DNA of 64,000 bases, taken from contig NZ_JAPENX010000001.1 of NCBI RefSeq assembly GCF_026341815.1, positions 1,054,001-1,118,000 of the forward strand. The letters are read 5' to 3'. Below the pieces are notes generated by a model. That model saw only the letters and a list, made by a program, of their open reading frames with translations, was not told where the DNA came from and made no database searches. Origin of the DNA: Streptomyces sp. NBC_00572. Lineage in GTDB: Bacteria > Actinomycetota > Actinomycetes > Streptomycetales > Streptomycetaceae. The stretch's first letter is position 1. Each line of letters starts with the position of its first letter. Below are positions 17 to 14,094 of the stretch, one piece after another. The translations under genes and the position numbers were made by a program.

Positions 17-1777
17 GTGCCTCAACTACGCCTCGCCCTGAATCAGATCGACTCGACCGTCGGAGACATCGCCGGGAACGCCGAGGCGATCGTGCACTGG
101 ACCCGGCACGCCGCCGGACAGGGTGCGCATCTCGTCGCGTTCCCCGAGATGGCGCTGACCGGATACCCCGTCGAGGACCTCGCACTGCGCTCCTCGTTCG
201 TCGAGGCGTCGCGGGTGGCCCTGCGCGGTCTCGCCCGCCGCCTCGCGGACGAGGGCTTCGGCGAGCTGCCGGTCGTCGTCGGCTACCTGGACCGCTCCGA
301 GCGGGCGGAGCCGAAGCTCGGCCGGCCCGCCGGTTCGCCGGAGAACGCCGCCGCCGTGCTGCACCGCGGCGAGGTGGTGCTGCGCTTCGCCAAGCACCAC
401 CTCCCGAACTACGGCGTCTTCGACGAGTACCGCTACTTCGTCCAGGGCGACACCCTGCCGGTCGTCCGGGTCCACGGGGTCGACGTGGCCCTGGCGATCT
501 GCGAGGACCTGTGGCAGGAGGGCGGCCGGGTCCCGGCGGCGCGCAGCGCGCGGGCGGGGCTGCTGCTGTCGGTGAACGCCTCGCCGTACGAGCGGAACAA
601 GGACGACACGCGCCTCGACCTGGTCCGCAAGCGGGCCCAGGAGGCCGGGTGCGTGACCGCGTATCTGGCGAGCACGGGCGGTCAGGACGAGCTGGTCTTC
701 GACGGCGACTCGATCGTGGTGGGCGCGGACGGCGAAGTGATCGCGCGTGCCCCGCAGTTCGTCGAGGGCAGCGTGATCCTGGACCTGGAGCTGCCGGCGG
801 CCGAGGCCGAGGCTCCGGAAGGTCTGGTGAACGACGGGCTGACGATCGACCGCGTGGTGGTCTCGGAGGAGCCGCTGCCGGCGTACGAGCCGGAGCTGAC
901 GGGTGGGTACGCGCACCGGCTCGACGACGACGAGGAGGTGTACTCGGCGCTGGTCATCGGCGTCCGCGCGTATGTCGCGAAGAACGGTTTCCGCTCGGTG
1001 CTCGTCGGCCTCTCCGGCGGCATCGACTCGGCGCTCGTCGCGGCCATCGCCTGCGACGCGCTCGGCGCGGAGAACGTGTACGGGGTGTCGATGCCCTCGA
1101 AGTACTCCTCCGACCACTCGCGCGGCGACGCGGCCGAGCTGGCCCGCCGCACCGGGCTCCACTACCGCACGGTGTCGATCGAGCCGATGTTCGACGCGTA
1201 CATGGGCGCGCTCGGCCTCACCGGCCTCGCCGAGGAGAACCTCCAGTCGCGGCTGCGCGGTACGACGCTGATGGCGCTCTCCAACCAGGAGGGCCACATC
1301 GTCCTCGCGCCGGGCAACAAGTCCGAGCTGGCGGTGGGCTATTCGACCCTGTACGGCGACTCCGTCGGCGCGTTCGGGCCCATCAAGGACGTCTACAAGT
1401 CGACCGTGTTCCGGCTGGCGCGCTGGCGCAACCGGGCGGCGGAGGAGCGCGGCCAGACCCCGCCGATCCCGGAGAGCTCGATCAGCAAGCCGCCCAGCGC
1501 CGAGCTGCGCCCCGGCCAGGTCGACACGGACTCGCTGCCGGACTACGACACCCTGGACGCGGTCCTGGCCCTGTACGTGGACCAGGACCGGGGCCGGGAC
1601 GAGATCGTGGCCGCGGGCTTCGACGAGGAGCTGGTCACGCGGACGCTGCGGATGGTGGACACGGCGGAGTACAAGCGGCGCCAGTACCCGCCGGGCACCA
1701 AGATCTCGGCGAAGGGCTTCGGCAAGGACCGCCGCCTCCCGGTCACGAACCGCTGGCGCGAGACGCCGGCCGGCTGA
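17..1777 (+). CDS. nadE: Glutamine-dependent NAD+ synthetase
   Basis: This cytosolic enzyme makes the last step of NAD biosynthesis: it amidates deamido-NAD with ammonia released from glutamine. The 586-residue product has the usual two parts. The N-terminal nitrilase-like amidase carries Glu44 (in AFPEMALTGYP), Lys126 (FAKHHLPNYG) and the nucleophile Cys162 (AICEDLW). The C-terminal synthetase carries the ATP-binding loop GLSGGIDSALVA near residues 330-340. The start is GTG at 17, only 16 bases into the window, so any promoter lies outside. Its 3' end overlaps the convergent MFS gene by 35 bp. Length and all catalytic residues fit a functional enzyme. Confidence 0.97.
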   Translation: MPQLRLALNQIDSTVGDIAGNAEAIVHWTRHAAGQGAHLVAFPEMALTGYPVEDLALRSSFVEASRVALRGLARRLADEGFGELPVVVGYLDRSERAEPKLGRPAGSPENAAAVLHRGEVVLRFAKHHLPNYGVFDEYRYFVQGDTLPVVRVHGVDVALAICEDLWQEGGRVPAARSARAGLLLSVNASPYERNKDDTRLDLVRKRAQEAGCVTAYLASTGGQDELVFDGDSIVVGADGEVIARAPQFVEGSVILDLELPAAEAEAPEGLVNDGLTIDRVVVSEEPLPAYEPELTGGYAHRLDDDEEVYSALVIGVRAYVAKNGFRSVLVGLSGGIDSALVAAIACDALGAENVYGVSMPSKYSSDHSRGDAAELARRTGLHYRTVSIEPMFDAYMGALGLTGLAEENLQSRLRGTTLMALSNQEGHIVLAPGNKSELAVGYSTLYGDSVGAFGPIKDVYKSTVFRLARWRNRAAEERGQTPPIPESSISKPPSAELRPGQVDTDSLPDYDTLDAVLALYVDQDRGRDEIVAAGFDEELVTRTLRMVDTAEYKRRQYPPGTKISAKGFGKDRRLPVTNRWRETPAG

Positions 1778-2990
1778 CCGGCGGTTCGACCGCCGTGCGG
1801 GGGCTTTTCGCGACCACGCGGGAGGCCCCCTCCCCCGTTCTCCCGCTCCGGTCACGGTCGAGCAGTCCCGCCACCGCGGCGACCGCGAGTCCCACCACCG
1901 TGAGGCCCGCGCCGACGAGGGCCGGCGAGGTCCAGCCCCAGCCGGCGGCGACGGCCGCGCCGCCCGCCCAGGCGCCGCCGGCGTTGGCGAGGTTGAAGGC
2001 GGAGTGGTTGGAGGCGGAGGCCAGCGTGGGGGCGTCCTTGGCCTTGTTCATGACCAGCATCTGGAGCGGCGTGGTGGTCATGAAGCCGACCGCACCGAGC
2101 ACCACGACCGTGACCAGGGCCAGCCAGGGCACGTGGACCGTGAAGCGGAAGGCGACCAGGGTGAGGACGAGGGCGGCGAGCGAGCCGTACAGCGTCGGGC
2201 GGAGCGCCCGGTCGGTCAGCGGGCCCGCGGCGAGCGCCCCGCCGGTCATGCCGAGGCCGAAGAGGGCGAGGACGACGGTGACCGTGGAGTCGCCGAAGCC
2301 CATCACCTCGGTGGTCATCGAGGCCAGGTACGAGTAGACGGCGAAGACGCCCGCGAAGCCGAAGACGGCGGTGAGCAGGCCCAGCAGCACCTGCGGGCGA
2401 CCGAGGGCGCGCACCTCGCGGCCCAGGCTCTGCCGCTCGTCCACCGGGACGTGCGGCACGAGGCGGGCGAGCGCGGCCATGGCGAGCAGGCCGATGACGG
2501 AGACCACGAGGAAGGTGGCCCGCCAGCCGAGGTGCTGTCCGAGCAGGGTCGCCGCCGGTACGCCGAGGATGTTGGCGACGGTCAGGCCCAGGAACATCGT
2601 GGCCACCGCCCGCGCCTGCCGGCCCTCGCGCACGAGCCGGGCGGCGACGACCGCGCCGAGGCCGAAGAACGCGCCGTGCGGAAGCCCGGCGAGGACCCGG
2701 CCGGCGATCAGCCAGCCGAAGCCGGGAGCGAGCGCGGAGGCCAGGTTGCCGACCGTGAAGAGGGCCATGAGCAGGAGCAGCATCCGCTTGCGCGGGACGC
2801 GCGAGCCGAGGGCGGTGAGCAGCGGGGCGCCGACGACGACGCCGATCGCGTACGCCGAGACGAGGTACCCGGCGGTGGGGACGGAGGTGCCCAGGTCGTC
2901 GGCGACCTGCGGGAGCAGGCCCATCATCACGAATTCGGTCGTGCCGATACCGAAGGCGGAGACGGCGAGCGCGAGCAGCGCCAGGGGCAT
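1743..2990 (-). CDS. MFS transporter, DHA1/AraJ-like
   Basis: A 415-residue polytopic membrane protein with about twelve hydrophobic segments. It opens with a family-typical segment including GIGTTEFVMMGLLP, followed by the loop GSRVPRKRMLLLL between the second and third helices, which matches the MFS signature GxxxDRxGRR in position. This subgroup (AraJ, YdhP, Cmr-like) exports sugars or drugs; the substrate cannot be read from sequence. It starts with ATG at 2990 behind an AAGG eight bases upstream. It is convergent with nadE, overlapping its end by 35 bp, and stands as a single gene. There is no adjacent regulator to suggest a ligand. Confidence 0.9.
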   Translation of the reverse strand: MPLALLALAVSAFGIGTTEFVMMGLLPQVADDLGTSVPTAGYLVSAYAIGVVVGAPLLTALGSRVPRKRMLLLLMALFTVGNLASALAPGFGWLIAGRVLAGLPHGAFFGLGAVVAARLVREGRQARAVATMFLGLTVANILGVPAATLLGQHLGWRATFLVVSVIGLLAMAALARLVPHVPVDERQSLGREVRALGRPQVLLGLLTAVFGFAGVFAVYSYLASMTTEVMGFGDSTVTVVLALFGLGMTGGALAAGPLTDRALRPTLYGSLAALVLTLVAFRFTVHVPWLALVTVVVLGAVGFMTTTPLQMLVMNKAKDAPTLASASNHSAFNLANAGGAWAGGAAVAAGWGWTSPALVGAGLTVVGLAVAAVAGLLDRDRSGRTGEGASRVVAKSPRTAVEPPVSRPASRASGS

Positions 2991-3083
2991 GGGAAGGGCC
3001 TTTCCGGAAGATAGTTCTTCAACGGAACAAAGCCTCTCAGATGTTTTCTTCCCGTCTTCCCCGAGTGACCTCGGAACCGGGTC

Positions 3084-4106
3084 TCAGAGCTTCACGCGGG
3101 CCGCGACCGGGAGGTGGTCGCTCTTCGTCTCCGGAAGGGCCCAGGACGACATCGGCTCGACTCCCCTGACCAGGATCTGGTCGATGCGGGCCATCGGGAA
3201 CGAGGCCGGCCAGCTGAAGCCGAAGCCGTCGCCGGCCGCGCCCTGGGTGGAGCGGAGCTGCGAGGTGATGCCGTTGAGCGCCCGGTCGTTCATGGTGCCG
3301 TTGAGGTCGCCGAGGAGGATGATCCGCTCGTGCTTGTCGTCGGAGATGGCCTCGCCGAGGGCGTTCGCGCTGATGTCGCGCTGGTTGGCGGTGAATCCGG
3401 CGTTGAGCTTGACCCGGACGGACGGCAGGTGGGCGACGTACACGGCCACCTCGCCCTTCGGGGTGACGATGTCGGCGCGCATCGCGCGGGTCCAGCCCAT
3501 CCGGATGTCGACCGGCTGCGCGGCGCGCAGCGGCAGCTTGCTCCACAGCCCGACCGTGCCCTGGACGGAGTGGTACGGGTACGCCTCCGCCAGGCCCTTC
3601 TCGTACGCCGGGACCATGTCGCCCTTCAGTTCCTCCAGGGCCAGGACGTCGGCGCCGGACGCGGCGAGCTGCTCGGCCGTGCCCGCGGGGTCCTGGTTGT
3701 CGGCGTTCACGTTGTGGGTGGCGACGGTCAGGTCACCGCCGGCCGCCGACTTGTCGGCGACGAGCCCGCCGAAGAGGTTCAGCCACACCACGGCCGGCAG
3801 CAGCAGGGCGATCAGCGCGGTGGCGGAGCGTCGCAGCAGGGCGACGACGAGGAGGACGGGGACGAAGAGGCCGAGCCAGGGCAGGAAGGTCTCGGTCAGG
3901 CTGCCGAGGTTGCCGACCCGGTTGGGGATGTCGGAGTGGAAGACCATCAGCAGGGTGAGGGCCACCGCGCACAGCGCGAGCAGGATGCCCCGGCGCCAGA
4001 TCCCCCGGTCGTGGCGGAGCCCCCCGAGGGCGGTCCGGAAGCGGGAGGTGGGGGGCTCGTTCCCCGCGCCGCCCTGCTCGGTCTCCGTCATGTCCACCCG
4101 CGCCAT
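3084..4106 (-). CDS. Endonuclease/exonuclease/phosphatase family membrane protein
   Basis: A 340-residue protein with a soluble N-terminus, two to three hydrophobic segments (about residues 35-125, including ILLALCAVALTLLMVF) and a C-terminal EEP fold. Conserved EEP pieces are visible: THNVNADNQDP, LALEELKG (metal-binding Glu), the loop ILLGDLNGTMND and the final KSDHLPVAA with the catalytic Asp-His pair. Family members hydrolyse phosphodiester or phosphomonoester bonds in nucleic acids, phosphoinositides or sphingomyelin; membrane-tethered Streptomyces members have no assigned substrate. ATG at 4106 has GAGGAC upstream. It is monocistronic, lying downstream of and in the same direction as the TetR gene after a gap of about 200 bp. 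Confidence 0.88.
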   Translation of the reverse strand: MARVDMTETEQGGAGNEPPTSRFRTALGGLRHDRGIWRRGILLALCAVALTLLMVFHSDIPNRVGNLGSLTETFLPWLGLFVPVLLVVALLRRSATALIALLLPAVVWLNLFGGLVADKSAAGGDLTVATHNVNADNQDPAGTAEQLAASGADVLALEELKGDMVPAYEKGLAEAYPYHSVQGTVGLWSKLPLRAAQPVDIRMGWTRAMRADIVTPKGEVAVYVAHLPSVRVKLNAGFTANQRDISANALGEAISDDKHERIILLGDLNGTMNDRALNGITSQLRSTQGAAGDGFGFSWPASFPMARIDQILVRGVEPMSSWALPETKSDHLPVAARVKL

Positions 4107-5028: not shown

Positions 5029-6729
5029 CTACCGTCGGGCCGATTCTCCCGCCTCGGAGGCCGGGCCCGGCACCGAGCCCCGCCGGGCGTCACCGTCCGG
5101 GACGGTTCCGGGTGCCGCGGCGCCCGGTCCGGCACCGCCCGGTTCCGCCGCGCCCGTCGGCGTACGGCCCGGGAGGAAGACCGCGACGACCACCGCGCCG
5201 ATCAGGCCGATCACCGCCGAGGCCAGCGCCGTGACGTGCATGGCGTCCAGGAAGGCGTCGTACGCCGGGGCCACCAGGTCCCGGCCCGCCGGGCCGAGCT
5301 TCTCCGCGACCGCGAGCGTCGCCTCGACGGACTCGCCCGCCGTGGCGCGCAGGGCTTCCGGGACCCCGCCGAGGTGCCCATCGATCTCCCCGCGGTACGT
5401 GGAGGAGAGCAGCGAGCCGAGGACGGCGACGCCGAGCGCGCCGCCGACCTGCCGGAAGGTGTTGTTGATCGCCGAGCCGGAACCCGCCTTCTCGCGGGGC
5501 AGCGCCTGCATGATCGCGACCGTGACCGGCGGCATGATGTGCGCCATTCCCGCGCCCTGGACGAAGAAGACGACCTCCATGACCCAGACCGGGGTCGAGG
5601 CGTCGAAGAAGGCGAAGGCCGCGAGGCCCAGGGCGACGAGCAGCATGCCGGCGGTGCAGACGGCCTTGGCGCCGAAGCGTTCGACGACGAGCCGCGCGCG
5701 GGGCGCGAACACCATCTGCGCGACGGCCAGCGGCAGGATGAGCAGCCCGGACTGCAGGGCGCTGTAGCCGCGGACGCTCTGCAGGTAGAAGGCGGAGAAG
5801 AAGGTCACGCCCATGAGCGCGAAGAAGACGAGCGCGATGGCGGCGACGGCCGCCGAGAACGCGGGCCTCTTGAAGTACGTCATGTCGATCGCCGGGTGGT
5901 CGCTGCGCCGCTCGTGGAGGACGAAGAGGACCAGGACGGCGAGGCCGCCGAGGACCGGGGCGAGGACGGTGGCGTCGGTGAAGTCGGCCAGTTCGCCGCC
6001 GCGGATGATCCCGTAGACGAGGAGAACGAGTCCGACGACGGAGAGCAGCACGCCGGGGATGTCGATGCGGCCGGGCTTGGGGTCACGGGAGTCGGGGACC
6101 AGCCACATCATCAGGGCGAGGGCGATCAGCACGACCGGCACGTTGATGAGGAAGATCGATCCCCACCAGAAGTGTTCGAGCAGGATGCCGCCGGTGATCG
6201 GGCCGATCGCGATGGCGAGGCCGACGCTGCCGGCCCAGATGCCGATGGCCTTGGGCTGCTCGTCGCGCTCGAAGACGTTCATGAGGACGGCGAGCGTGGC
6301 GGGCATGACGAAGGCGGCGCCGAGGCCCATGACGGCCCGGAAGGCGATGAGCTCGCCCGGGGAGCCGGAGAGCGCGGCGAGGGCGGAGCCGATGCCGAAG
6401 ACGGTGATGCCGAAGAGCAGCACCTTCTTGCGGCCGAGGCGGTCGCCGAGCAGGCCGGAGGTGAAGAGGAGGCCGGCGAAGACGAGCGTGTAGGAGTTGA
6501 TCGCCCACTCCAGCTCGCTCTGGGTGGCGCCGATGCCGGTGGGCGCGGGGGCGGCGATCGTCTTGACGGCGACGTTCAGGATCGAGTTGTCGAGGACGAC
6601 GATCAGCAGGCTGAGCATCAGGACGCCGAGGACGGCCCAGCGGCGCCGGTGGACGGCCTCGGGGACCCGGAGTCCGGGGGGCACGGCGGATGCGGAGGAT
6701 GCGGAGGATGCAGAGGACGGCTGTGACAT
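5029..6729 (-). CDS. MFS transporter, DHA2 (EmrB/QacA) family
   Basis: A 566-residue drug:H+ antiporter with about fourteen membrane segments. Motif C of the export families is partly visible ([20 protein letters not shown] region), and the loop [13 protein letters not shown] is a clear motif A. The N-terminus carries a Ser/Ala repeat encoded by 9-bp DNA repeats (6690-6715). Of three in-frame starts (GTG 6738, ATG 6735, ATG 6729), ATG 6729 has AGGG eight bases upstream and is preferred. The gene is divergent from panB and precedes its TetR gene. It likely exports a toxic or self-made compound; the substrate cannot be inferred. Confidence 0.93.
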
Positions 6730-6747
6730 GCCCATCACCCTAGAGGT

Positions 6748-6778
6748 ATTTCGATACGAGACCGTCTCGTATCGAAAT
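6748..6778. promoter_or_regulatory. Perfect 31-bp palindromic operator upstream of the DHA2 exporter
   Basis: Two 15-bp arms (left ATTTCGATACGAGAC) flank a single central C at 6763 and are exact reverse complements. The core GATACGAGAC/GTCTCGTATC is the kind of site bound by TetR-family repressors. It ends about 19 bp upstream of the preferred ATG at 6729, so a bound repressor would cover the promoter. Confidence 0.85.
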
Positions 6779-6945
6779 TCCTGACCGAGCCTTTACGTTT
6801 GCGGGCATGTGAACGAGTCATCGCCACGCCGGTGTGAACAGCGCCACTCCGGCCCACTTCCCCGCCCGCCCGGCGAAGTGCCACCATGGATGTGGTCCGG
6901 GGACGCCGTCAGGGCGCCTCGAGATGACACAAGGAGCCGTGCACC

Positions 6946-7809
6946 ATGACGCTTCAGGCTGCCCAGAAACCGCCCGCCGACAGCAGCAAGGCGCTGTACG
7001 GCGGCAAGGGCACGCGCCGCATCACCGTCCACGACATCGCCGCCGCCAAGACCCGCGGCGAGAAGTGGCCCATGCTCACCGCCTACGACGCGATGACCGC
7101 CTCCGTCTTCGACGAGGCCGGCATCCCGGTGATCCTCGTCGGCGACTCGATGGGCAACTGTCACCTCGGCTACGACACCACCGTGCCCGTCACGATGGAC
7201 GAGATGACCCTGCTCTCCGCCGCCGTCGTCCGGGGCACCAAGCGCGCCCTCGTCGTCGGCGACCTCCCCTTCGGTTCGTACCAGGAAGGGCCCGTCCAGG
7301 CCCTGCGCAACGCCACCCGGCTGGTCAAGGACGCGGGCGTCGGCGCGATCAAGCTGGAGGGCGGCGAGCGCTCGCTGCCGCAGACGGAACTGCTCGTCCA
7401 GGCCGGCATCCCCGTCATGTCCCACCTGGGCCTCACCCCGCAGTCCGTGAACACCATGGGCTACCGGGTGCAGGGCCGCTCCGACGAGGCCGCGCACAAG
7501 CTGCTCCGCGACGCGAAGGCGGCGCAGGACGCGGGCGCGTTCGCGGTCGTCCTGGAGCTCGTACCGGCCGAGCTGGCCGCCGAGGTCACCCGCTCGCTGC
7601 ACATCCCGACCATCGGGATCGGCGCCGGCGCCGGCACCGACGCCCAGGTGCTCGTCTGGACCGACATGGCCGGTCTGACCGGCGGCAAGGTCCCGCGCTT
7701 CACCAAGCAGTACGCCAACCTCCGCGAGACGCTCGGCGACGCCGCGCGCGCCTTCGCCGAGGACGTCAGCGGCGGGGCGTTCCCCGCCGAGGAGCACACC
7801 TTCCACTAG
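6946..7809 (+). CDS. panB: 3-methyl-2-oxobutanoate hydroxymethyltransferase
   Basis: First committed enzyme of pantothenate and CoA synthesis: it transfers a hydroxymethyl group from 5,10-methylene-tetrahydrofolate to alpha-ketoisovalerate, giving ketopantoate. The 287-residue length is normal. Family blocks are present: PMLTAYDAMTASVFDEAG, VGDSMGNCHLGYDTT (metal-binding Asp), AIKLEGGE, VMSHLGLTPQ and LELVPAELA with the catalytic Glu. ATG at 6946 has AAGGAG about ten bases ahead. It is divergent from the DHA2 exporter and followed by a strong hairpin at 7845-7883, so it is probably monocistronic; panC and panD are not in the window. Confidence 0.98.
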   Translation: MTLQAAQKPPADSSKALYGGKGTRRITVHDIAAAKTRGEKWPMLTAYDAMTASVFDEAGIPVILVGDSMGNCHLGYDTTVPVTMDEMTLLSAAVVRGTKRALVVGDLPFGSYQEGPVQALRNATRLVKDAGVGAIKLEGGERSLPQTELLVQAGIPVMSHLGLTPQSVNTMGYRVQGRSDEAAHKLLRDAKAAQDAGAFAVVLELVPAELAAEVTRSLHIPTIGIGAGAGTDAQVLVWTDMAGLTGGKVPRFTKQYANLRETLGDAARAFAEDVSGGAFPAEEHTFH

Positions 7810-7844
7810 GCGTCACAGGTACGCGCAGACCACTGCGGCACCAC

Positions 7845-7883
7845 CCGACAGCCCGCCGACATCCCCCATCGGCGGGCTGTCGG
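7845..7883 (+). terminator. Rho-independent-type hairpin after panB
   Basis: A 15-bp perfect stem, CCGACAGCCCGCCGA (7845-7859) with its complement at 7869-7883, around a 9-base loop. There is only a short T-containing tail (TCGTCTGT), as is usual for GC-rich actinobacterial terminators. It separates panB from the ABC exporter genes. Confidence 0.85.
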
Positions 7884-7904
7884 TCGTCTGTAGGAGGATT
7901 GTCG

Positions 7905-8921
7905 GTGGCGGCTGGTCTAGTGGTGGCCATGACGCGATCACACACCAACGCCGTCGAGGTCCGGGGCCTCGTGAAGCACTTCGGCGCCACCAAGGCCCTC
8001 GACGGGGTCGACCTGGACGTACGGGAGGGCACCGTCCTCGGCGTGCTCGGTCCGAACGGCGCCGGGAAGACCACCCTCGTCCGCTGCCTCTCCACCCTCC
8101 TCGTCCCGGACGCCGGGACCGCCACCGTCGCCGGGTACGACGTGGTGAAGCACCCCCGCCAGCTGCGCCGCACCATAGGGCTCACCGGTCAGTACGCCTC
8201 GGTCGACGAGAAGCTGTCCGGCTGGGAGAACCTGTACATGATCGGGCGGCTGCTCGACCTCTCCCGCGCCGACGCCCGCCGCCGGTCCGACGAGATGCTG
8301 GAGCGCTTCTCCCTCACCGACGCCGCCAAGCGGCCCGCCATGACCTACTCCGGCGGCATGCGGCGCCGGCTCGACCTGGCCGCCTCGATGATCGGCCAGC
8401 CGGCCGTCCTCTACCTGGACGAGCCGACGACCGGCCTCGACCCCCGCACCCGCAACGAGGTGTGGGACGAGGTCCAGCGGATGGTCTCGGAGGGCGTCAC
8501 CGTCCTCCTGACCACCCAGTACATGGAGGAGGCGGAGCAGCTCGCGAGCGAGCTGACCGTCATCGACAAGGGCAAGGTCATCGCCAAGGGCGGGGTCGAC
8601 GAGCTCAAGGCCAAGGTCGGCGGCCGGACCCTGAAGGTCCGCCCGGTGGACCCGGACCAGCTGCCGGCGATGGCCGCCGCGCTCCGCGAGACCGGTCTCG
8701 ACGGTGTCGCCGGCTCGACCGTCGTCCCCGACGACGGCGCGCTGTACGTGCCGATCCTCACCGACCAGCAGCTGACCGCCGTCGTGGCCCTGCTCGGCGC
8801 ACGCGGCTTCGGCATCGCCCACATCGGCACCCATCTGCCCAGCCTGGACGAGGTGTTCCTGGCGATCACGGGCGAGAAGACCGCCGTTTCCGACGAGATC
8901 AACGAGGAGGTCGCCGCGTGA
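7905..8921 (+). CDS. ABC transporter ATP-binding protein, DrrA-like (daunorubicin resistance family)
   Basis: The ATPase of an export-type ABC transporter. Walker A is GPNGAGKTTLV, the Q-loop is GLTGQYASVDEKLSGWENL, the signature is YSGGMRRRLDLA, and Walker B is VLYLDEPTTGLD, followed by a C-terminal domain typical of DrrA proteins (HLPSLDEVFLAITGEK). GTG at 7905 is preferred because AGGAGG lies seven bases upstream; ATG at 7929 is the usual annotation choice but has no comparable ribosome site. The stop overlaps the permease start (GTGA), so the two are translationally coupled. The likely role is drug or lipid export across the membrane. Confidence 0.95.
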   Translation: MAAGLVVAMTRSHTNAVEVRGLVKHFGATKALDGVDLDVREGTVLGVLGPNGAGKTTLVRCLSTLLVPDAGTATVAGYDVVKHPRQLRRTIGLTGQYASVDEKLSGWENLYMIGRLLDLSRADARRRSDEMLERFSLTDAAKRPAMTYSGGMRRRLDLAASMIGQPAVLYLDEPTTGLDPRTRNEVWDEVQRMVSEGVTVLLTTQYMEEAEQLASELTVIDKGKVIAKGGVDELKAKVGGRTLKVRPVDPDQLPAMAAALRETGLDGVAGSTVVPDDGALYVPILTDQQLTAVVALLGARGFGIAHIGTHLPSLDEVFLAITGEKTAVSDEINEEVAA

Positions 8922-9772
8922 GCACGACCACGGTCACCAAGTCCCCCGTCGGCGCGCCGAGTCCGGCTGCGGCGCGGCGCGCGCCCATCGCCGAGGGCCG
9001 GATCGGCCTGCGGGCCAACCTGCGCCACATCGGCGCCCTCTCCCGTCGCAACGCGCTGCAGATCAAGCAGGACCCGGAGTCGATGTTCGACGCCGTCCTG
9101 ATGCCGATCATCTTCATCCTGCTCTTCGTGTACGTCTTCGGCGGCGCCATCTCGGGCAAGGGCAACAACGAGGTCTACGTGAACTACGTGACCCCGGGCC
9201 TGATGGCGATGATGGGCATGAACATCTCGATGGCCGTCGGCGTCGGCATCAACGACGACTTCAAGAAGGGGGTCATGGACCGGTTCCGGACGATGCCGAT
9301 CGCCCGGTCCTCCGTCCTGATCGCGAAGATCGTCGTCGAGGTCGGCCGGATGCTGATCGCCACCTCGATCCTCCTCGGCATGGGCTTCCTGCTCGGCCTG
9401 GAGATCCACACCTCGTTCTTCCACCTGCTCGCCGCCATCGGTCTCTCGATGGTCTTCGGAGCGTCGCTGATGTGGATCTTCATCCTGCTGGGTCTCACCC
9501 TGAAGACCGCGCAGGCGGTCCAGGGCATGGCCATGCTGGTCCTGATGCCGCTGCAGTTCGGTTCCTCGATCTTCGCCCCGCCGACGTCGATGCCCGACTG
9601 GCTGAAGGCCTTCACCGACTACAACCCGCTGTCGAACCTCGCCGACGCCGCCCGGAACCTGATCAACGGCGGCCCGGTCGCCCACTCCGTGTGGATGACC
9701 CTCGGCTGGGCGCTGGCGATCACGGTCATCACGGCCCCTCTGGCGGTGGCCAAGTTCCGCAAGAAGACCTGA
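8918..9772 (+). CDS. ABC transporter permease, DrrB-like (ABC-2 type)
   Basis: The 284-residue membrane partner of the preceding ATPase. After a soluble N-terminus of about 45 residues it has six hydrophobic segments and the ABC-2 type architecture. Conserved pieces include DPESMFDAVLMPIIFILLF, the cytoplasmic segment FKKGVMDRFRTMPIAR and the late ITVITAPLAVAKFRKK. The GTG start overlaps the ATPase stop. It is convergent with the SARP gene, with only about 39 bp between, which contains the small palindrome CCCCGCGGGG. No drug-biosynthesis genes are nearby, so the substrate is not predictable. Confidence 0.94.
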   Translation: MSTTTVTKSPVGAPSPAAARRAPIAEGRIGLRANLRHIGALSRRNALQIKQDPESMFDAVLMPIIFILLFVYVFGGAISGKGNNEVYVNYVTPGLMAMMGMNISMAVGVGINDDFKKGVMDRFRTMPIARSSVLIAKIVVEVGRMLIATSILLGMGFLLGLEIHTSFFHLLAAIGLSMVFGASLMWIFILLGLTLKTAQAVQGMAMLVLMPLQFGSSIFAPPTSMPDWLKAFTDYNPLSNLADAARNLINGGPVAHSVWMTLGWALAITVITAPLAVAKFRKKT

Positions 9773-9811: not shown

Positions 9812-12800
9812 TCAGGACTCGGCGCGCTCACTGATCGCGTCGGCGGCGCGACCGAGCAGGGCGGCGGCCTCCTCCAGGGAGAGGCCGCCGCCTTCGGCAT
9901 GTGCCGCCTCGAACGCGTCCTCACCGAGCACGGACCGGGTCAGCTCCGTCGCCCGCGTCAGGTTCTCCGCTTCGAGCGGCGACAGCAGGTGTCCTGGCGG
10001 GGCCAGGCCCTCCCGGGCCCCGAGCAGCACCGCGCCGGTCCGCGCCCCCGGCCCGCCGAGACCGGCGAGCGCCCAGGCGGCCCCGGCCAGATGGACCGAG
10101 GGCATCTGCGGGGCGACCATCATCGAAAGGGCGCCCAGGGAGCGTTCGTACGCCTCCCTGTTGAGGGCGAGCGCGGAGGCGTACCTCTTGTCCACGTTGT
10201 CCAGCCAGCCCAGGCTGCCGAGGGTGAAGCCCTCGAAGATCGAGAGGGTCTCGGAACTGAACTCCTGTCGCAGCGTCTGCAGATGCTCCCGGGCCTCGGC
10301 GGTGCGCCCGCTGCGGCCCAGTGCCAGGCCGAGGAACAGCCGGGCGCCCAGCAGCGGTTCATGCCCCAGGTTGGTTCCGCCGTCGACGATCTCGCGGAGG
10401 ATCGCCTCGCCCTCCTCGATCCGCCCGGTCTCGACGAGCACGCTCGCGTAGCGGGCCCGCAGCAGGGCCATCTGCGACTGGGCGCCGATCCGTTCCGCGT
10501 AGCCGATGGCGGCGGCGTAGTCCTCGGCCGCGCCTCCGAATTCGAGCCGACGCTCACGGGCCTCCGCGCGGGCGGACAGCGCCTCGGCCGCACCCCAGGC
10601 GTCACCGAGGCGTTCGAAGATCTCCAGACTCTCGTCGGCGTCGTTGCCGGCCTGGTCGGCCCAGTCGGCCCGGTTGGCGAGCATGTTGGCGCGCAGCTGG
10701 AGGGCGTTGCCGAGTTCCCAGTCGTAGCCGTGGTGGCGGCAGGCTTCGACGGTCGTGTCGAGCAGTTCGCGCAGCCGGCCCGCCTCGCCGATGAGGAGGA
10801 CCGCGAAGACGGCGAAGGAGCCGGGCAGCCGGCAGGTCTGGGGCAGGCCGGGGGTGTAGACGGCGGTCATCTCACGAAGACGGCGCACGCCCTCCGGACT
10901 GGTCCACCGTCCGGTCTCGTGGTCCATGTTGAGCAGCTCGACGAGCCGCACCCCGCGCCGGGCCTCCCAGCGCTGCTCCTCGGAGAACGGTGGCGGCGTG
11001 GCCGTACACGGCTCGTGCAGCGGTACGACGGGGGCGGCGGGCGCCGCGAACGGGTCGGGCCCGAGGGCGGCGGCGGCCCGCGCCCAGTGCAGGGCGTCGG
11101 TTCTCAGGTCGCGCATCTGCCAGTACCAGAGCAGGGAGTGGACGAGGACGAGCGTCTCGTCCTCGTCGTGGGCGGCGACAGCCCGGCGCAGGGCGGTGCG
11201 GAGGTTGCCGTACTCGGCTCCGAGACGCGCCATCGCGGCGACCTGCCCGGCCCCGCGCAGTTCGGGGTCGGTGGTGCGGGCGAGTTCCCGGTAGTACGTG
11301 AGATGACGCCGCTCCGTCGCGGCCCGCTCCCCGGACTCCTCAAGACGCTCCCCCGCGTACTCCGCCACCGTCTCCAGCAACCGGAACCGCATCCCCTCAC
11401 CGTCCCGCCCCGGCCCCGCCACCACCAACGACTTGTCCACCAGAGCACCCAGCAGGTCCAGCACCTCCGGACCACCACCGTCCGCACACACCGCCTCCGC
11501 CGCCGACAGATCCGCCCCGCCCGTGAACACCGCCAGCCGCCGCAGCACCGCCCGCTCCGGCCCCTCCAGCAAATCCCACGACCAGTCCACCACCGCCCGC
11601 AGAGTCTGCTGACGCGGCAACACCGTCCGCGCCCCCGACGTCAACAACCGGAACCGGTCGTCAAGACGCTCCGCGATCTGCCCCACCGACAACAACCGCA
11701 ACCGCGCCGCCGCCAACTCGATCGCCAACGGCAACCCGTCCAGACGACGACACACCTCCTCCGCCGCCCCCACATCCTCCGCCACCACAAAACCCGGACG
11801 CGCCGCCCCACCCCGCTCCCCCAACAACCGCAACGCCATCCCCATCGACAACGGCCCCAACGGCCGCACCACCTCCCCCGGCACCCCCAACGGCTCCCGA
11901 CTCGTCGCGAGAACCCGCAGGTCCGGGCAGCGGGTGAGCAGGGTCTCGGCGAGCTCGGCGGCGGCCGCCACGAGGTGCTCGCAGTTGTCGAGGAGCAGCA
12001 GCATCCGCCGCCCCGCGCAGTGCTCGACGAGCCGGGCGAGCGGATCGTCCCCGGCCCGCAGTTCCTCGGCTCCGGCGCCGCGCAGCACCGTTTCCCGGGC
12101 GCCGACGGCCGCGAGGACGGCCTCGACGACCGCCTCCGGGTCGGTGACGGCCGCGAGTTCGGCGACCCAGACGCCGTCCGGCCAGGCCCCGTCGGCGGCG
12201 CCGCGTTCGGCCGCCTCCTGGGAGAGCCGGGTCTTCCCGGCGCCCCCGGGCCCGAGCAGGGTGACGAGCCGGGCCGTGCGCAGGTCGTCCCGGAGGGCGG
12301 CGATCTCCTCGCCGCGCCCGACGAAGCTGGTGAGCCGCGCGCGCAGGTTGCCGCGGACGGGGGCCGTCCCGCCCTTCGCCGGAGCCTCCTCCTTCGCGTG
12401 CTTCGGGGCGGGAGTGCGCTCGGGCGTCCTCGGGCCCGCGAGCAGCTCCGCGTGGAGGGTGCGCAGGGCGGGCGACGGGTCCGTACCGAGGCGGTTGGCG
12501 AGCGCACGCCGGACGACCTCGTACGCGGCGAGGGCCTCGGCGGCGCGCCCGGTGTCCCGCAGGGCGCGGATCCGCAGCGCCTGGAGGGTCTCGTCCAGGG
12601 GGTGTGCGGCGCAGAGGGCGGTCAGTTCGGGGAGGGCCGTGGGTGCCTCGCCGAGTCCGAGGGCCGCGTCGAGCCTGGCCCGGCGGACGTCGAGACGGCG
12701 GGCCTCCCAACGGGGGGCCTCCGTGTCCCGGTCCGGCAGGTCGGCGAGGGCGGGCCCGCGCCAGAGCCCGAGAGCCTCGTCGAGGAGGGCGGCGGCACGC

Positions 12801-13153
12801 GCAGGGTCCCCGGCGCCGAGCGCGGCGACGCCTTCGGCGGCGAGCCGCTCGAAGCGGCGGGCGTCCACGTCCTCGGGCCGGGCGTCGAGCCGGTAGCCGC
12901 CCTCCGCGGAGACGATCCGGTCCCGGCCGAGGGCCTTGCGGAGCCGTCCGACGAGGGCCTGGAGCGCGGCGACCGCGTCGGCGGGCGGCTCGTCGCCGTG
13001 CCACACCTCGCCGACGAGATCCGGTACGGGCACGGTCCGGCCGGCCCGCAGGGCGAGGACGGTGAGCAGTGCGCGGACCCGCGGACCGCCGACGGCCACG
13101 TCGGAGCCGTCGGGCGTGCGGGCGAGGGTCGGGCCGAGGACGGAATAGTGCAC
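9812..13153 (-). CDS. AfsR/SARP-family regulator with BTAD, STAND ATPase and TPR-like domains
   Basis: A 1113-residue regulator. Residues 1-95 form an OmpR-type winged helix (VRALLTVLALRAG, LVGEVWHGDEPP), about 97-245 the bacterial transcriptional activation domain, 265-560 a STAND/NB-ARC ATPase (P-loop LLGPGGAGKTRL; LLLLDNCEHL as Walker B), and the remaining 500 residues are helical repeats. Such proteins activate secondary metabolism or development in Streptomyces; the ATPase acts as a nucleotide-dependent switch. Here no biosynthetic cluster adjoins it. The stretch 11290-11905 (residues about 416-621) has markedly different synonymous codon use, rich in TTG, GGG and GTG (see findings). Confidence 0.95.
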   Translation of the reverse strand: MHYSVLGPTLARTPDGSDVAVGGPRVRALLTVLALRAGRTVPVPDLVGEVWHGDEPPADAVAALQALVGRLRKALGRDRIVSAEGGYRLDARPEDVDARRFERLAAEGVAALGAGDPARAAALLDEALGLWRGPALADLPDRDTEAPRWEARRLDVRRARLDAALGLGEAPTALPELTALCAAHPLDETLQALRIRALRDTGRAAEALAAYEVVRRALANRLGTDPSPALRTLHAELLAGPRTPERTPAPKHAKEEAPAKGGTAPVRGNLRARLTSFVGRGEEIAALRDDLRTARLVTLLGPGGAGKTRLSQEAAERGAADGAWPDGVWVAELAAVTDPEAVVEAVLAAVGARETVLRGAGAEELRAGDDPLARLVEHCAGRRMLLLLDNCEHLVAAAAELAETLLTRCPDLRVLATSREPLGVPGEVVRPLGPLSMGMALRLLGERGGAARPGFVVAEDVGAAEEVCRRLDGLPLAIELAAARLRLLSVGQIAERLDDRFRLLTSGARTVLPRQQTLRAVVDWSWDLLEGPERAVLRRLAVFTGGADLSAAEAVCADGGGPEVLDLLGALVDKSLVVAGPGRDGEGMRFRLLETVAEYAGERLEESGERAATERRHLTYYRELARTTDPELRGAGQVAAMARLGAEYGNLRTALRRAVAAHDEDETLVLVHSLLWYWQMRDLRTDALHWARAAAALGPDPFAAPAAPVVPLHEPCTATPPPFSEEQRWEARRGVRLVELLNMDHETGRWTSPEGVRRLREMTAVYTPGLPQTCRLPGSFAVFAVLLIGEAGRLRELLDTTVEACRHHGYDWELGNALQLRANMLANRADWADQAGNDADESLEIFERLGDAWGAAEALSARAEARERRLEFGGAAEDYAAAIGYAERIGAQSQMALLRARYASVLVETGRIEEGEAILREIVDGGTNLGHEPLLGARLFLGLALGRSGRTAEAREHLQTLRQEFSSETLSIFEGFTLGSLGWLDNVDKRYASALALNREAYERSLGALSMMVAPQMPSVHLAGAAWALAGLGGPGARTGAVLLGAREGLAPPGHLLSPLEAENLTRATELTRSVLGEDAFEAAHAEGGGLSLEEAAALLGRAADAISERAES

Positions 13154-13299
13154 GGGCCCATTCTCCGTGAGTGGGTCCCCGACTCCGGAACTCCCCCCGC
13201 CGCCCGGTACGTTTCCCGCACATCAGGCTCGCGCACCGGGCCCGTACGCCGGGCCCTGTCCGGACCCCGACAGTCCTCCGTCCTTTGGGAGCATCCGCG

Positions 13300-14094
13300 A
13301 TGACCACGGCCACCACCCGGCGCCACGAGCGGCGGATCAGCCCCGTCTTCCTGGCGATCCTCGCCGTCATGGCCGTCACCGGCTGGGCGGTGTGGACGGA
13401 CTTCGCCGCCTCGCCCGGCCTGGCGATCTTCCTCTTCGTGACCTCGGCGTGGGTGGTGTCGCTCTGTCTGCACGAGTACGCGCACGCCCGTACGGCGCTG
13501 CACGGCGGTGACATCACGGTCGGTGCGAAGGGCTATCTGACCCTGAACCCGCTCGCGTACACCCATGCCGTCCTCAGCATCATCCTGCCGGTGCTGTTCG
13601 TGATCATGGGCGGGATCGGTCTGCCGGGCGGCGCGGTCTTCATCGAGCAGGGCCGGATCAAGGGCCGCTGGAAGCACAGCCTGATCTCGGCGGCGGGCCC
13701 CCTGGCGAACGTGCTGTTCGCGCTCGTCTGCACGGCCCCGTTCTGGCTGGACGCGCTCGACGGCGTACCGCTCGCGTTCCAGTTCGCGCTGGCCTTCCTG
13801 GCGTTCCTCCAGGTGACCGCGGCGCTCCTGAACTTCCTGCCGGTGCCGGGCCTGGACGGGTACGGCGTGGTGGAGCCCTGGCTGTCGTACAAGGTGAAGC
13901 GGCAGATCGAGCCGTACGCGCCGTACGGCTTCTTCATCGTGATCGCGCTGCTGTTCGTGCCGGCGATCAACAACGGCTTCTTCGACGCGATCGACGCGCT
14001 GATGCGGTCGCTCGGGGTGCCGGAGCTCTCGCGCTACTGCGGCTCGCAGCTCTTCCGCTTCTGGCAGGACGCGCCCGAGTTCTGCCAGGTCTGA
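13300..14094 (+). CDS. Site-2 protease family (M50) membrane protein
   Basis: A 264-residue polytopic protein with the zinc-protease motif HEYAH at residues 58-62 inside a membrane segment and the third-ligand motif LPVPGLDGYG near residue 185, as in intramembrane site-2 proteases. About six hydrophobic segments are seen. The family cleaves membrane-bound substrates such as anti-sigma factors, but many short actinobacterial members have no known target. ATG at 13300 follows GGGAG by about nine bases. It is divergent from the SARP regulator (about 146 bp between) and convergent with a small membrane-protein gene. Confidence 0.93.
   Translation: MTTATTRRHERRISPVFLAILAVMAVTGWAVWTDFAASPGLAIFLFVTSAWVVSLCLHEYAHARTALHGGDITVGAKGYLTLNPLAYTHAVLSIILPVLFVIMGGIGLPGGAVFIEQGRIKGRWKHSLISAAGPLANVLFALVCTAPFWLDALDGVPLAFQFALAFLAFLQVTAALLNFLPVPGLDGYGVVEPWLSYKVKRQIEPYAPYGFFIVIALLFVPAINNGFFDAIDALMRSLGVPELSRYCGSQLFRFWQDAPEFCQV

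Follow-up and report, generated by a model that had tools for sequence, protein, structure and literature searches.

The window examined here is a stretch of 64,000 nucleotides from Streptomyces sp. NBC_00572 and carries gene A, predicted to encode a SARP/AfsR-like regulator. One segment of gene A very probably results from a recent, non-reciprocal ectopic gene conversion that copied the corresponding segment of a paralogue, gene B, into A and that is the latest of repeated conversions between the two loci. Concerted evolution is confined to a module of some 220 codons, over which A and B resemble each other most. Comparison of related genomes shows that conversion has been repeated and that it co-occurs with a skew of the coding strand toward G and T. 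In this respect, the tract behaves like the genetic repeats of intense nucleotide skews (GRINS): it is a repeated, intensely GC- and TA-skewed coding-strand segment that keeps exchanging. A preliminary description of the window had proposed gene conversion with an AfsR-like paralogue to explain an abrupt change in codon usage, and the near-identical donor for which it suggested a search has been found in the same genome. The present results go further, as conversion alone leaves the odd codon style unexplained, conversion recurs across species and the style is of the GRINS type.

A segment shared by two distant regulator genes

The features at the center of this analysis are the following:
9812..13153, minus strand: gene A, 1113 amino acids (open reading frame call, Pfam domains and synteny with orthologues)
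11238..11911, minus strand: converted tract, codons 415-639 of gene A; its partner in gene B is G000:C1:548295-548968, G000 being the genome under study
11306..11908, minus strand: GT-skewed (GRINS-like) part of the tract, codons 416-616 of gene A

Gene B is a paralogue of A located at L007:6876-10316 on contig C1 of the same genome; it too is a regulator gene, and its neighbours differ from those of A. Over 11238-11911 the two genes match at 673 of 674 bases, the sole difference being at 11315, and mismatches at 11237 and 11912 bound the tract. Beyond these bounds identity is 67% on the N-terminal side and 57% on the C-terminal side. Codons specifying the same amino acid in both genes differ in 1 of 211 cases within the tract and in 82 of 228 and 71 of 177 cases on its two sides, and the segment scores 657 where the highest of 2000 shuffles reached 42. 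The identity of the tract exceeds that of its flanks and also that between orthologues (550/618 for A of this genome and A of G014), which is the pattern of recent interlocus gene conversion. No third near-identical copy was found in the genome, the next-best match reaching 70% over 269 bases. The two genes lie on different contigs, and over 1 Mb separates A from each end of the contig that carries it, which places the genes more than a megabase apart.

The codon patch itself is real. Within codons 416-639 of A, leucine is encoded by TTG in 18 of 34 cases (0/129 elsewhere in the gene), glycine by GGG in 19 of 27 (21/84 elsewhere) and valine by GTG in 19 of 20 (13/52 elsewhere); G at third codon positions stands at 0.74 versus 0.37 in the rest of the gene, and C at 0.14 versus 0.55. 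Over codons 416-616, G or T is the last coding-strand base in 130 of the 133 fourfold degenerate codons (G 112, T 18, C 3, A 0), the flanks of A having G 204, T 22, C 353 and A 17. The bounds first given for the patch, 11290-11905, had to be amended to about 11306-11908 for the skew and to 11238-11911 for the copied tract, which is the wider of the two.

Coding-strand GC skew amounts to 0.43 and TA skew to 0.39 over codons 416-621. When the protein encoded there was recoded with the codon usage of the flanks, GC skew was 0.01 (standard deviation 0.026) and TA skew 0.13 (standard deviation 0.031), with maxima of 0.11 and 0.25 in 5000 draws; since such recoding leaves almost no GC skew, the amino acids do not explain the skew. 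The patch is the strongest skew in the 404 kb sampled from this genome (17 stretches of 20 kb in addition to the window, taken as 13,095 overlapping windows of 630 nt): both skews exceed 0.30 with equal sign in nine of these windows, every one inside the patch. Gene B bears the same skew and codon style and, because the donor is equally skewed, conversion explains the patch in A and not the origin of the skew.

Two other stretches of the 404-kb sample, L241:8131-8941 and L249:4651-5341, are moderately skewed (about -0.27/-0.27 on the plus strand). No second full-length copy of either was found in the genome, so that a skew of about 0.27 does not by itself imply a repeat. G-quadruplexes were considered as a cause of the skew and dropped: the coding strand of the patch holds 0-1 such motifs per gene, in homogenized and unhomogenized copies alike.

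Gene A comprises a BTAD (SARP-type) activator, an AAA/NB-ARC-like STAND ATPase and a long C-terminal part. Pfam places Trans_reg_C at residues 24-82, BTAD at 96-238 (E 6e-40) and AAA_16 at 277-408; BTAD, AAA_16, Trans_reg_C and AAA_22 all pass the Pfam cut-offs, and matches to NB-ARC and nSTAND1 lie under them. The combination of BTAD with a STAND-type ATPase that characterizes SARP/STAND regulators is present, and on its sequence gene A is assigned to the SARP/AfsR-like regulators with a STAND ATPase, with a predicted role in activating antibiotic pathway genes. The patch had been placed in the most conserved part of the ATPase. A and B are indeed most alike there, but the patch begins just after the AAA core, since AAA_16 ends at residue 408, and is not the P-loop part. 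A frame of 1134 amino acids runs antisense through gene A (9899-13303, plus strand) and is probably a shadow frame of high-G+C DNA.

Recurrent homogenization in related genomes

Relatives were searched in 61 genomes and then in 392 genomes of the genus, together 453 or so; of the 392, 206 matched at E values up to 1e-60, and chosen loci were fetched among the best matches listed. Both genes were seen in 16 genomes, 14 with open frames and two with frameshifts that were compared as raw DNA. Loci were assigned by their neighbours, two genes adjoining A being kept in other genomes and serving as synteny markers of the A locus:
8876..9772, plus strand: ABC-2 transporter permease (Pfam ABC2_membrane on the open reading frame 8462-9772)
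13171..14094, plus strand: Peptidase M50-like protein (Pfam Peptidase_M50; start codon uncertain)
All 37 loci tested carry either purely A-type markers (ABC permease, M50) or purely B-type markers (SpoIIE, FAD_binding_9), and this lack of any mixture confirms the orthology of the A and B loci.

A and B are homogenized over nearly the same segment in six of the 16 genomes, at 98.5-99.9% identity: besides G000, these are G061 (618/624), G014 (609/618), G334 (620/621), G407 (612/621) and G399 (660/664). Each homogenized species carries its own tract sequence. The other ten pairs are unhomogenized, with 78-87% identity in G294, G329, G410, G292, G186, G167, G342, G331 and G409 and 560/655 in G248; even in unhomogenized pairs, at 78-87%, this segment is where A and B resemble each other most. 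Outside the 16 genomes, single members were found as A in G262, G395, G122, G024 and G315 and as B in G346 and G370. Three of these seven loci show the skew (G262 A, G370 B and G346 B) and four lack it.

In ten genomes other than G000 that have both genes on a single contig (G061, G014, G294, G407, G292, G342, G331, G409, G248 and G399), A and B lie on the same strand, 1.6-2.1 Mb apart. We infer that conversion proceeds without crossing over, because a crossover between A and B would delete or duplicate the intervening 1.6-2.1 Mb.

Some assemblies deserve a remark of their own. Gene B of G346 is split at the tract, contig C6 ending in it and a match on contig C9 beginning just beyond (L116, L130); this fits the tract being an unresolved exact repeat, and similar assemblies may conceal homogenized pairs. 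In G399 (L089, L090; completeness 55%) and G248 (L103, L104; completeness 88%) both genes are spread over several frames, for which sequencing error is our guess.

Comparing the phylogeny of the patch with that of its flanks, a check put forward in the preliminary description, revealed the conflict that conversion predicts. The trees held 19 A and 15 B rows, the rows of G410 and G370 being partial and the C-side row of G370_B both long and misread. Each flank tree, N and C, requires a single change of the A/B label, and support for the flank clades is 100, save for A on the N side. The patch tree requires 10 label changes and pairs A with B as sisters within G000, G061, G014, G334 and G407, the five homogenized genomes that it includes. 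For 14 A and 14 B rows of the patch, an approximately unbiased (AU) test rejects the monophyly of A with p = 5.8e-95.

The patch tree nests the sequences of G000, G061 and G014 among the B rows. Over shared columns, the patch of the window resembles B more closely than A in nine of the ten unhomogenized genomes, as in G294 (563 versus 505 of 618), with the two copies level in G409 (444 versus 445 of 624). This nesting and proximity set the direction from B to A in the G000/G061/G014 clade.

Relation between conversion and strand skew

Skew and homogenization go largely together. Both copies of the six homogenized genomes have GC skews of 0.30-0.42 and TA skews of 0.28-0.37. In the ten unhomogenized genomes, GC skew ranges from -0.07 to 0.14 in A and from 0.07 to 0.35 in B, B exceeding A in 10 of 10. 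GT skew is therefore seen in 6/6 homogenized pairs and in 0/10 A copies of unhomogenized genomes, and among B copies GC skew rises by degrees from 0.07 to 0.40. At its 5' edge the skew tracks the homogenized tract: compared with G000, G061 and G014, homogenization and skew in G334 and G407 both set in some 25-40 codons sooner. In line with this, codons 401-412 are 100% G/T-ending in G334 and G407 and 25-50% in the other three.

Substitutions were polarized by parsimony, mostly with a single outgroup. In the patch, changes toward versus from G/T number 49:5 in G000_B, 51:7 in G014_B, 64:2 in G334_B and 47:6 in G407_B, and likewise 43:10 in G294_B, 40:8 in G410_B and 58:1 in G262_A among further skewed lineages, with C>G and C>T as the chief changes. 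Unskewed lineages give 6:27 (G395_A), 8:28 (G410_A) and 2:33 to 6:22 (G292_B, five pairings). Between G000 and G061 the changes are few, at 9:2 (A) and 7:2 (B) for G000 and 4:3 and 5:5 for G061.

A number of observations weigh against this account of the tract. On the side of the trees, the N-flank tree unites A with a support of only 4 (B, 100), and the patch clade of G334 and G407 mixes A and B rows, leaving the direction ambiguous there. The polarized counts rest on parsimony with one outgroup (two in one comparison), and the flanks of skewed lineages also lean toward G/T (G000_B 110:59, G334_A 77:37, G262_A 91:58), even though this lean, about 1.4 to 2.1 to 1, is far weaker than in the patch. 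G292 is homogenized at codons 570-641 (two differences in 209 nt) yet unskewed, and codons 617-640 are little skewed in the five homogenized tracts examined, so that conversion alone does not bring skew at once. Conversely, B of G294 is skewed (0.35/0.35) while its A is unhomogenized, and A of G262 is skewed while B was not found in the 190-contig assembly of that genome. As the exceptions G292, G294 and G262 show, the link between skew and homogenization is not strict. Homogenization also amounts to just three changes on the A-flank tree, with two or three independent pairs, and as these contrasts are too few for a sign test the link is not significant once relatedness is counted.

The exchange would be a non-crossover repair between direct repeats on one chromosome arm; a strand-asymmetric bias would build up GT skew on the segment during exchange, and the skew would fade after exchange ends. 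A bolder reading, which we consider less likely than not, takes the A/B pair as a natural experiment on the origin of GRINS, in which repeated strand-biased ectopic conversion would drive silent sites near G/T saturation and the skew would later decay. Candidates for the bias are NucS, acting on G-T, G-G and T-T mismatches in the heteroduplex, and RecA, favouring GT-rich strands. If true, bacteria would have a type of biased gene conversion that is strand-asymmetric and extends beyond polyketide synthases (PKSs).

Either skew or conversion may have come first. It is possible that skew preceded conversion, a GT-rich coding strand being a preferred substrate for RecA pairing and hence a conversion hot spot. 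RecA binding is reported to favour TGG repeats that resemble Chi (PMC3763553), and B copies are more skewed in homogenized genomes (14 genomes, Mann-Whitney p = 0.005, ignoring phylogeny); such an order of events leaves the origin of the skew unexplained, however, and the conversion in G292 ran across an unskewed segment. The reverse order, which we consider rather doubtful, supposes that strand-asymmetric repair of heteroduplexes, with NucS cutting at G-T, G-G and T-T, biases one strand toward G/T. NucS was found in this genome and MutS domain V was not, and the mismatches that NucS is reported to prefer (PMC8228993) are formally those in which the invading strand has G/T where the recipient has C/A. 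NucS is also reported to lower recombination between diverged DNA, and repair patches described in mycobacteria are short (PMC11551744), both of which tell against this order. The predominance of C>G and C>T in skewed lineages agrees with it, but a constant polarity of invasion would be required. Cyanobacteria and firmicutes are mostly users of MutS-MutL. Against a role of NucS, skewed repeats of the GRINS type, commonest in actinobacteria, are also reported from these two groups (PMC10394414).

Of the remaining explanations, foreign import and constraint were rejected on the evidence of trees and orthologues. That a third, foreign source of GT-rich style gave the segment to both genes is very unlikely: it would account for the unusual style of both copies, but the patch tree keeps the sequences within the A/B family, where their closest relatives are B copies, GC skew is graded among the latter, and no third near-identical copy was found in this genome, the search elsewhere having covered the 453 or so genomes and one pattern scan. 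Still less credit can be given to a constraint, whether RNA structure, a program of translation speed or a need of the protein, that would hold G-ending codons in place. The skewed stretch is similarly placed in homogenized genomes, with a 3' edge near codon 616 common to the five examined, as a constraint would have it. Yet in G334 and G407 its 5' edge is displaced along with that of the conversion, the same amino acids written in flank codons lose nearly all GC skew, and the generality among orthologues that would have spoken for constraint was not seen: none of 80 named homologues (78 with Streptomyces titles and two titled 'Actinobacteria bacterium'; eight are A orthologues) has both skews above 0.15, and the patch is absent from A in 10/10 unhomogenized genomes and in four of the five A copies found without a partner, the exception being G262. 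An assembly artefact, in which reads of one locus filled the other, is the least credible. Exact repeats are prone to such errors, as the split B of G346 recalls; in this genome both copies are uniquely flanked on both sides, the separate assembly of G061 agrees while its A and B differ at 6/624 positions and lie 4-5% from those of G000, and G014, G334, G407 and G399 agree as well, each with its own tract sequence.

The tract among known systems

GRINS were reportedly named in PKSs, in a 2021 paper (PNAS) that left their mechanism unknown and is said to mention further gene families. They are recognized as segments of at least 500 bp with more than 80% identity to another region and mean absolute GC and TA skews above 0.15, the repeat partner lying within the same PKS (PMC9899208). 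Scanned in 150-nt windows with a step of 30 and a five-window mean, the segment extends over 630 nt for A versus B and 660 nt for B versus A, with a mean best-window identity of 0.82 from windows out of register, and mean absolute GC/TA skews are 0.426/0.417 in A and 0.424/0.397 in B. The gene conversion expected of GRINS is visible in the conflict between patch and flank trees and in the homogenized pairs. Partner B lies on another contig among other neighbours and neither gene is a PKS; because the partner is outside the same PKS, the tract is not filed as GRINS even though it works like one. The length, identity and skew thresholds are passed by the A/B segment in all five homogenized genomes tested and, among nine unhomogenized ones, by none except G410, where B versus A passes and A versus B fails.

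Three PKS stretches of this genome (L234-L236) contain internal repeats of 83-92% identity with mild mean skew, both skews exceeding 0.25 in just 6 of 1536 windows. In L234 (G000:C2:5441000-5460900), a modular PKS holds a 2.7-kb internal repeat of 92% identity (1000-3663 and 6160-8799), which is only mildly skewed, the 630-nt window at 6001 giving about 0.30/0.20. Judged by titles and abstract openings, none of the papers listed deals with gene conversion or GRINS in regulators of the SARP type, and none of those listed as citing the GRINS work concerns regulators by its title.

The A/B system displays the GRINS signature in a simple two-gene setting, at conserved loci and with both homogenized and unhomogenized relatives, which makes it testable whether conversion makes skew or skew makes conversion. 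It also shows that two regulators can share the concerted evolution of an ATPase module even as divergence proceeds in the parts that bind DNA and in the C-terminal parts, and such evolution of one module misleads gene trees.

Compared with SARP/AfsR-like STAND regulators, gene A shares BTAD and the AAA/NB-ARC-like domain and is ordinary as a protein; its oddity is the DNA history of one segment. As in interlocus gene conversion and concerted evolution elsewhere, paralogues exceed orthologues in identity over a bounded tract with independent flanks, but here the exchange is limited to one protein module and is accompanied by a strong strand-specific skew. With GRINS, the tract has in common a skewed repeat, G/T-rich recoding and the sign of gene conversion. 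It differs in residing in regulators, as a single pair split between two genes on different contigs, and in that its states, homogenized or not and skewed or not, can be compared across species.
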